Of a stretch of DNA of 64,000 bases, positions 617 to 2,929 are shown one piece after another (the stretch's first letter is position 1; each line of letters begins with the position of its first letter). Both the position numbers and the translations under genes were made by a program. Under the pieces are notes generated by a model. That model saw only the letters and a list, made by a program, of their open reading frames with translations. It was not told the DNA's origin and ran no database searches. The stretch is taken from assembly GCF_004322855.1 (NCBI RefSeq), contig NZ_CP036402.1:992001-1056000 (forward strand), in the 5' to 3' direction. This DNA is from Egibacter rhizosphaerae. GTDB taxonomy: Bacteria; Actinomycetota; Nitriliruptoria; Euzebyales; Egibacteraceae.

Positions 617-838
617 GAGCAACGGTCCTTCCGGCGCGGGACGCGCTCGAACGTGAAACGCGGGCGATCGGCGCGGCGGGATCCCCCCGACGACCGGAAC
701 ATAGGTTCGCCGGCCGGTCCACTGCAATCTCCCCGGCGTGCCCGTCCGGGCAACCAACATCGGCCGGCGGTGGTGAGCCGGCGTCGGGATTGGCTGATAT
801 GACCTGCCGGTAGCGGTTCCATGGGTTTCGCCTCCGGA

Positions 839-916
839 GGTGTCAGAAGGGACCCGCACAGGTTCCGAGGGTCGGGCGTTGTCGCGCCTGGTTCTCCTGA
901 CACCACCGGGAGGTGG
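839..916 (+). promoter_or_regulatory. foldable 5' leader of the transposase with hidden ribosome binding site
   Basis: GGTGTCAG (839-846) is complementary to CTGACACC (897-904) and encloses GACCC (851-855) paired with GGGTC (869-873). The Shine-Dalgarno sequence GGGAGG (908-913) lies in a second hairpin, CCACC (903-907), loop GGGA, GGTGG (912-916). The two structures share bases 903-904, so they cannot both form fully. This may limit transposase translation, or it may be part of the element's guide RNA. The structures are seen in the sequence; their function is inferred. Confidence 0.4.
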
Positions 917-921
917 GCTTG

Positions 922-2187
922 ATGATGCACATGCATGGTATTCGAGCGCAGCAACTTTCGGCGCGGACGGTCGGCGTGGGGTTGGATCGGCTGGTGGCGG
1001 TGCCGGTGGATGTGGGCAAGTCGGCGGCGATGGCGATGGTGGTCGACTTCTCGGGTCGGCGGCTGGCCGCGCCGTTCGAGTTCGCTCTCGACCGGTCGGG
1101 GGTGGCGGGGTTCGTCGCTCGGGTCGAGCGGGTTCTGCCGGCGGAGACGGCGTTGGTGCGGGTGGGGGTGGAGGCGTGCGGGCACTATCATCGGCCGCTG
1201 GTCGCCTCGAGGGTGCTGCCCGGGCACTGGCAGCTGGTGGAGCACAACCCGGCGTGGGTGTCAGCCCAGCGGCGGGTCAACGGCACGGGTCGGACCAAGA
1301 CCGACCCGATCGACTTGACCGCGATCGCGGATCTGCTGCTGGCCGGCCGCGGCTACGAGGTGGCCGTCGGTGATGAGCTGCTGGTCGAGCTGAGCGCGTG
1401 GGCGGCGCATCGCCGCCGGCGGGTGCAGGCCCGCTCGGCGGTCAAGAACCAGCTGACCGGTCAGCTGGACCGCTGCTTTCCCGGGCTGGGCGCGAGTCTG
1501 TCGAGCGTGCTGGGCACCAAGGTCGGCCGCCTTGTCGCGGCCGAGTTCTCAGACCCCGATCGGCTCGCCCGGCTCGGCGTGGCCCGCTTCCGGGCGTTCG
1601 CGGCGCGCCGCGACGTGCGCGTGAGCGTGGCGCTGGCCGAGCGCCTCGTGGCCGCGGCCCGCGACGCGCTGCCCACGCCCGACGCGGCGGTGGCCCGTCA
1701 GGTCCTGGCCGCCGATCTGGCGCTGCTCGACGGCCTGGACGGCCAACTCGCCGAGGTCGACGCGCGCATCGACGCGCTCGTGCCCGCCACCCGCTACCGC
1801 GTGCTGACGTCGGGGCCGGGCTGGGGGGCGGTCCGCGCGGCCGGCTACGCCGCCGGCGTCGGCGACCCGGCACGCTGGCCCTCGCACCGGCAGGTGTACC
1901 GCGCCGCCGGGCTGAACCCCGCCCAGTACGAGTCCGCCGGACGCCGTCGTGACAGCGGCATCAGCCGGGAGGGATCGGTGCCGCTGCGCCGGGCGATCCT
2001 CGACCTCGGCGTGGGCCTGTGGCACCAAGATCCCGCCGCCCGCCGCTACGCCGCCGGGCTGCGCGAGCGCGGCAAGCCCGGCGCGATCATCGCCACCGCC
2101 CTGGCCCGCCGGGCGAACAAGATCGCCTTCGCGATGGTCCGCGACCAGACGCTGTACGACCCCGCCTGCTGGGCCAGCAAGGAGTAG
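922..2187 (+). CDS. IS110-family transposase (DEDD recombinase)
   Basis: About 421 residues, the usual size for the family. The N-terminal RuvC-like DEDD domain is visible: VPVDVGKS carries the first Asp, VGVEACGHYH the Glu, and GRTKTDPIDLTAIADLL the last acidic pair. The C-terminal Transposase_20 domain follows, with SGPGWGAVRAAGYAA, RQVYRAAGLNPAQYES and the likely nucleophile serine near RDSGISREGS. Family knowledge: these enzymes recombine DNA through a DEDD and serine active site directed by a bridge (seek) RNA encoded in the element's non-coding end. ATG 922 was preferred over GTG 913 because GGGAGG ends 8 nt before it. The frame is intact, so the element may still be active. Confidence 0.92.
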   Translation: MMHMHGIRAQQLSARTVGVGLDRLVAVPVDVGKSAAMAMVVDFSGRRLAAPFEFALDRSGVAGFVARVERVLPAETALVRVGVEACGHYHRPLVASRVLPGHWQLVEHNPAWVSAQRRVNGTGRTKTDPIDLTAIADLLLAGRGYEVAVGDELLVELSAWAAHRRRRVQARSAVKNQLTGQLDRCFPGLGASLSSVLGTKVGRLVAAEFSDPDRLARLGVARFRAFAARRDVRVSVALAERLVAAARDALPTPDAAVARQVLAADLALLDGLDGQLAEVDARIDALVPATRYRVLTSGPGWGAVRAAGYAAGVGDPARWPSHRQVYRAAGLNPAQYESAGRRRDSGISREGSVPLRRAILDLGVGLWHQDPAARRYAAGLRERGKPGAIIATALARRANKIAFAMVRDQTLYDPACWASKE

Positions 2188-2236
2188 GACACCGGACCCT
2201 TCCCATCCGCGGTCGATCGTGCGAGGCTCGCGGACA

Positions 2237-2461
2237 GGAAGGCCGGGATCAGACGTCGTACGGGCTATGGCGGACTCGTTCGCGGGTCACGCCGCTCCTA
2301 GCTTGACGCCCGGCCTTCCACCCGTCTCAGAGCCCGAACGAAGCCAGCTGACCCCACCCTCAGTGGAGGTCGCATAGATCAGCGTGGGCCTACGGCCCCG
2401 CCGACCTCGCACCCCACCGCCACACAAGCATCCCGCCAGCCCCCGCGCACACCGGGGGCTG
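2237..2461 (+). ncRNA. candidate IS110 bridge/seek RNA region downstream of the transposase
   Basis: This non-coding stretch between the transposase stop and moaE can fold into three successive elements. The first is an 11-bp perfect stem, GGAAGGCCGGG (2237-2247) with CCCGGCCTTCC (2309-2319), enclosing about 60 nt with weaker internal pairing. The second is GAGGTCG (2366-2372) with CGACCTC (2402-2408), enclosing hairpin GGGCC-TAC-GGCCC. The third is CAGCCCCCG (2437-2445) with CGGGGGCTG (2453-2461). Stems enclosing large internal loops are the general layout of IS110-group guide RNAs. I could not match guide segments to target and donor DNA because the element ends are unknown. Confidence 0.4.
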
Positions 2462-2503
2462 CCAAGGATGTCGTACACGATGCTTGACAAGACCTACGGC
2501 CAG

Positions 2504-2929
2504 CTAGGTCGTCCCGGGCCAGTGCGCATCGCCGTCGGCCCAGTGCTCCTGTTTCCAGATCGGCACCTCGGCCTTGAGGCGATCAATACCCTCGCGGGCC
2601 GCTGCGAACGCCTCCGGTCGGTGCGCAGCCGAGACCCCGACCACCACGGACGGCTCCTCGACACCGAGCGACCCGACACGGTGCTCCATCCACACGGCCG
2701 TGATGCCGTCGCGCAACGCGAGCTCCTCGGCGAGGCGCACGAGCTGGGCATTCGCGAGCTCGACGTACGCCTCGTAGGACAGCCCCGTCACCGCGCGGCC
2801 CTCGCTCTGCTCACGCACAGCCCCCACGAAGACGACGACCGCGCCCGCAGCGGGATCGGCGCAGAAGCGGTGCGCGGCATCCGTCGAGAGCGGCTCCGAG
2901 GTGAGGGCGGCGTGGGTGCGGGCGGGCAC
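2504..2929 (-). CDS. moaE: molybdopterin synthase catalytic subunit MoaE
   Basis: Large subunit of molybdopterin synthase, which with thiocarboxylated MoaD converts precursor Z (cPMP) to molybdopterin in the cytoplasm. At 141 residues it has normal length. Visible family features are GAVVVFVGAVREQSEGR near the N terminus, LSYEAYVELA, AVWMEHRVGSLGVEEPSVVVGVSA and the C-terminal VPIWKQEHWADG with the catalytic-site lysine. GTG 2929 is the start; it lies 7 nt after the stop of the DUF4190 gene with AGAGGA before it, so the two are probably co-transcribed. No other Moa gene is in the window, so the MoaD partner must be elsewhere. Confidence 0.93.
   Translation of the reverse strand: MPARTHAALTSEPLSTDAAHRFCADPAAGAVVVFVGAVREQSEGRAVTGLSYEAYVELANAQLVRLAEELALRDGITAVWMEHRVGSLGVEEPSVVVGVSAAHRPEAFAAAREGIDRLKAEVPIWKQEHWADGDAHWPGTT

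Follow-up and report, generated by a model that had tools for sequence, protein, structure and literature searches.

The region at 2237-2389 of the window (by which we mean the whole 64,000-nt stretch of DNA analysed here) very probably specifies the bridge RNA used by an IS110-family element, as judged from its sequence. An earlier note on this DNA had put forward three stems at the 3' end of the element as a candidate bridge or seek RNA. Covariation, together with the match between guides and flanks, bears this out for 2237-2389, but the last of the three stems, at 2437-2461, is a separate hairpin. The features on which this reading depends are collected in Table 1.

Table 1. Features of the IS110-family element and of its predicted bridge RNA (window coordinates).
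Feature	Position	Strand	Basis
Whole IS110-family element	796..2505	+	Five-copy alignment
Core dinucleotide CT, left junction; left target GG just 5' (792-793)	794..795	.	Copy comparison
Left end / tnp 5' leader, without target guide	796..921	+	Fold; target-signal control
Recombinase, DEDD_Tnp_IS110 + Transposase_20, 421 aa	922..2187	+	Pfam and NCBIfam matches
Promoter-like motif TTCCCA-17 nt-GAGGCT	2200..2228	+	Motif, conserved in most close relatives
Bridge RNA (very probable)	2237..2389	+	Covariance model, covariation, guide-target match; 3' end set at last conserved helix
Target-binding stem-loop, outer stem 2237-2247/2309-2319	2237..2319	+	Two-sided changes, 6/10 outer-stem pairs
Left target guide UACGGGCU, core CU 2265-2266	2259..2266	+	Sole peak of blind scan, column 35
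Right target guide CUCCUAG, core complement AG 2300-2301	2295..2301	+	Sole peak of blind scan, column 88
Donor-binding stem-loop, outer stem 2332-2336/2385-2389, inner 2349-2355/2365-2372	2332..2389	+	Two-sided changes, 10/12 pairs
Left donor guide GCCAGCU = right end GCCAGCT (2499-2505)	2343..2349	+	Sequence; co-changes with right end, three donor classes
Right donor guide AUCAGC = reverse complement of core + left end GCTGAT (793-798)	2378..2383	+	Sequence
Separate 3' hairpin, third stem of the earlier note	2437..2461	+	Position conserved, sequence not
TTGACA, putative -35-like box	2484..2489	+	TTGAC at all ten right ends compared

With its CT core counted once the element in the window is 1,710 bp long, the other copy of the core lying at the left junction. 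It is one of five near-identical copies in the 4.64-Mb chromosome, which range from 1,709 to 1,710 bp in the copy alignment and encode identical recombinase proteins. The ends were set from an alignment of these five loci, in which the shared sequence stops at CT|GATATGACC on the left, with G at 796, and at CCAG-CT|AGG on the right, where the core occupies 2504-2505. The ends, on whose position the earlier proposal depended, are therefore at 796 and 2505, outside the stems, and with the right end at 2505 all three stems fall within the element. An intact tandem repeat unit adjoining copy L003, CCCTGGCTAGGCGCC, represents the empty site and contains a single CT; with one core at the empty site, there is no target-site duplication. 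The likely start codon of the recombinase gene is preceded by 126 nt and its stop codon is followed by 318 nt, giving the element a short left and a long right end. The junction of an excised circle is predicted to read GGCCAGCTGATATGACC.

The recombinase probably starts at ATG 922, the open frame also allowing GTG 913. It matches the profiles PF01548 (1.6e-24), PF02371 (4.8e-13) and NF033542 (1e-49), above cut-off, and when it is aligned with IS621 the D, E, D and D residues and the serine of the Tnp domain (YES) are all present. The DEDD transposase beside the structured end is intact, catalytic residues included.

At the right end, all three stems are found where they had been placed. Stem 1 pairs GGAAGGCCGGG (2237-2247) with CCCGGCCTTCC (2309-2319) over 11 bp and encloses 61 nt, where about 60 nt had been claimed; stem 2 joins 2349-2355 to 2365-2372 through 7 pairs; and stem 3 pairs CAGCCCCCG (2437-2445) with CGGGGGCTG (2453-2461) over 9 bp. 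The length of 11 bp given for stem 1 holds for the window copy, because of one extra G, but is 10 bp in the other copies read there. The window copy, with its extra G in this stem (2237-2247), is also the lowest scoring of the five against the covariance model. Folding of 2188-2480 gives -136.5 kcal/mol, compared with -115.0 +/- 5.8 kcal/mol for dinucleotide shuffles (z -3.7, 0/200). The covarying consensus fold consists of two stem-loops with internal loops, spanning 2237-2389. Two further features, a hairpin inside the target loop and an outer stem of the donor loop, were absent from the earlier list.

In an alignment of 21 homologues, which was fitted to the covariance model and favours the fold somewhat, the 43 pairs of this fold are formed in 94.1% of cells, two-sided changes affect 30 of the 43 as against at most 9 in any slid control, and the covariation score is 0.400 as against at most 0.096 when slid. 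Two-sided changes are already seen in 13 pairs in a MAFFT alignment of seven sequences. A scan of Rfam at gathering scores matched no family.

Elements with recombinases 36-86% identical to that of the window occur in other actinobacteria, including metagenome-assembled genomes, and some of these elements are decayed or truncated. A covariance model built from seven RNAs recovered all five copies in their own genome and nothing else at E up to 1, and it also matched more elements, intact and decayed, in other genera; searches with it against the IS110-type element L006 and the IS4321-bearing plasmid R751 gave no match. Relatives sought in plasmids (E 1e-50) and in viral contigs were not found. 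Recognisable pieces of the RNA remain in three decayed elements of other genomes (L032, L036 and L038), and in a further relative, L037, the right end has been lost just past the target loop, apparently to other mobile DNA.

In each element, the 5' side of the first internal loop is a copy of the left flank plus the core, and the 3' side is the reverse complement of the core plus the right flank. The window element carries guides GGGCU and CCUAG for GGCT|AGG, and L013, whose core is TT, carries CGGUU and UCCUAA for CGGTT|AGGA. L041 has CAAGCACU and ACGAAG for CAAGCACT|TCGT, so that its guide tracks a wholly different right target, TCGT; further cases are GCUUCCGCU for GCTTCCGCT in L033 and GCAUAA for TTATGC in L034. 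For the 12 element families compared on each side, the match of own guide to own flank exceeds that in all 200,000 permutations, on both sides (p about 5e-6). Matches average 2.88 of 3 at positions -3 to -1 and 2.92 of 3 at +1 to +3, with outer positions weaker and the match beyond -4 weak. To remove the analyst's choice of register, every alignment column was scanned blind, and the scan peaks at column 35 (2.38, the next being 0.63) and at column 88 (2.10, the next being 0.50), which coincide precisely with the ends of the two guides. The expectation that loop segments should match the flanks is borne out: loops match their own flanks and not those of other elements (12 families per side), and the element ends are matched too. 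Where the core changes from CT to TT, in L013, both the target guides and the donor guide change along with it.

Mismatches with the guide are found at -3 in two of the five same-genome copies, including that in the window, and at -2 in L039, while the right guide of L011 can be paired only if one G-U pair and one mismatch are allowed. Among the five same-genome copies, L003 and L004 have C for G at position -3 of the left guide (C in two, G in three). The target base at this position is G in L001 and L005 (guide G), C in L004 (guide C), and T in L002 and L003 (mismatch), a pattern that is only suggestive of guide drift.

Donor guides in the second loop match the element ends by sequence in ten elements, with imperfect core letters. 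The loop follows the class of right terminus, be it GCCAG, CATTA/GTTA or GGTTG, and in L013, with its TT core, the right donor guide is GUCAAC, for GTTGA. Core letters mismatch in several relatives, one example being AU for TT in L013. As the donor loop aligns poorly, the column scan is less sharp here than for the target guides.

Could the stems at the 3' end be merely transcription terminators or protein-binding hairpins, with no role as guides? The third stem, at 2437-2461, may well be a hairpin of this kind, its position being kept and its sequence not. For the two stem-loops this reading is very improbable: the flanks belong to the host and vary from one element to the next, and still each RNA predicts the flank of its own element; two-sided changes, moreover, keep the pairs in the stem-loops. 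A search for intrinsic terminators found none, nor any terminator-like site with a T run. Still harder to credit is a guide RNA in the 5' leader, that is, in the left end, where IS621 and other IS110-group elements have theirs. The leader is indeed conserved and highly structured, forming a branched stem at about 826-917 over the ribosome-binding site GGGAGGTGG, an architecture that is kept in nine relatives. However, leaders match the targets of their own elements no better than those of others (5.44 versus 5.25 of 8 positions, and 5.11 versus 4.90 of 7), whereas the right-end RNA matches both flanks, and it is in the right end that the blind scan places the guides. We therefore reject a guide in the leader, barring one of a layout not yet described. 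Since the leader stem covers the ribosome-binding site, its structure fits translation control, and it might restrict translation of read-through transcripts.

The alternative with the most to be said for it, though we regard it as unlikely, is that of a seekRNA restricted to the target, in which the first stem-loop alone acts as guide, the protein recognises the donor ends and the match in the second loop is incidental. For ISEc11 an RNA of 82 nt is enough for transposition (PMC11187229), and the mismatched core letters of the donor guides in several relatives also speak for it. Against it, two-sided changes show that the second stem-loop is kept as well, and the letters of its loop follow both the element ends, across three donor classes, and the TT core. 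A bridge RNA with both target and donor loops thus remains our preferred reading.

On the IS621 model, in which RNA holds target and donor together for recombination (PMC11208160, PMC11208158), the first stem-loop of the bridge RNA would pair with the chromosomal target, the left guide with the bottom strand and the right guide with the top strand, both guides taking in the CT core. In like manner, the second stem-loop would pair with the two element ends where they are joined in the excised circle. With the RNA bound to it, the DEDD/Tnp recombinase would then cut beside the core in both DNAs and exchange strands, so that the element would insert at GGCT|AGG without target duplication. Binding of RNA by the protein, formation of the circle and the chemistry of cleavage are presumed here by analogy with the literature on IS621 and ISEc11.

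Promoter-like motifs suggest how such an RNA may be expressed. In most close relatives TTC(A/C)CA, a spacer of exactly 17 nt and NANNNT lie 6-12 nt 5' of the first stem, and the corresponding sequence at 2200-2228 looks like a dedicated RNA promoter, from which transcription is predicted to begin around 2235-2237, where the stem starts. Because part of the spacer sequence is conserved too, its fixed length of 17 nt is not independent evidence. In a circular form, TTGACA would be placed 18 nt before TATGAC (798-803); over the right ends compared, the distance in the circle from TTGAC to the -10-like left-end sequence is 17-18 nt, and a junction promoter of this type has been described for other members (PMC11187229). 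From these motifs, the element may have two promoters, one dedicated to the RNA, at 2200-2228, and one that forms at the circle junction. The hairpin at 2437-2461 has counterparts at a nearly constant distance from the TTGAC box: in eight of eleven elements a hairpin is present 22-26 nt 5' of the box, with unrelated sequences. We take it to be a 3' element distinct from the RNA, one that may insulate transcripts or bring them to an end.

Specification of GGCTAGG by the guide has consequences for where the element is found. The genome contains 113 GGCTAGG sites as against 2,142 for the reversed motif (about 19 times rarer), and for about 8 of 13 insertions a long ORF can be read that ends in the target TAG. 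The window element directly follows the stop codon of moaE (minus strand), and its right junction retains that TAG (2504-2506). A preference for stop codons over and above the motif itself was considered and rejected: 13 of 30 sampled unoccupied GGCTAGG sites likewise lie at the end of an ORF (150 aa or longer), so the bias can be put down to the motif by itself. Because the guide names the stop-rich GGCTAGG, the element tends toward gene ends.

How does this element relate to the described groups of the family? With the IS1111 group (ISEc11, ISPa11 and IS4321/IS5075, the reference used here being IS4321 of R751) it shares a short left and a long right end, an RNA 3' of the recombinase gene, a TTGACA-type half promoter in the right end and the absence of target duplication (PMC11208160, PMC11187229). 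It differs from that group in lacking subterminal inverted repeats: a search here for repeats of 7-17 bp found 4 bp as the longest (P 0.99). The same search recovered 11 bp in the IS4321 control and, among ten elements, 8 bp in L014 only (P 0.01). With IS621, of the IS110 group, it shares a DEDD RuvC-like and a Tnp domain, a CT core and a pair of internal loops, in both of which left and right guides overlap at the core, but the RNA is in the left end there and in the right end here, and the recombinases are distantly related (phmmer E 4e-9, C-terminal domain). The same chromosome carries two copies of another IS110-family element (L006/L007), whose recombinase is about 28% identical and whose anatomy is the opposite, tnp being preceded by about 255 nt and followed by only about 20 nt. 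This second element occupies 1058-2564 of L006, and the left end is where one would expect its guide RNA.

A recombinase tree including one IS1111 and two IS110-type references leaves the groups unresolved (support 0.15). Since the RNA is in the right end but the repeats that define IS1111 are missing, we describe the element as IS110-family with an IS1111-like right-end bridge RNA, and not as IS1111 in the strict sense. The combination is not unprecedented, as a survey mentions a 3' non-coding region in certain elements whose repeats are short or absent (PMC11187229).

The RNA-guided mechanism itself is already known and belongs to a recently discovered kind of system. We consider it possible, though doubtful, that these elements form a distinct actinobacterial lineage, combining a right-end bridge RNA without subterminal inverted repeats, a promoter of its own, and single-base guide drift within a genome, such that sister copies start to diverge in the sites they favour. 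The present data add to the known bridge-RNA recombinases a well-supported family of high-GC actinobacterial origin; its natural guide-target pairs, about a dozen in all, span two core dinucleotides (CT and TT) and three classes of donor ends. Sets of this kind show which guide positions are kept, here -3 to +3 strongly and the outer positions weakly, and they offer more recombinases to choose from for programmable DNA insertion. For the family as a whole, a right-end RNA in elements without subterminal inverted repeats splits two traits that are usually found together.
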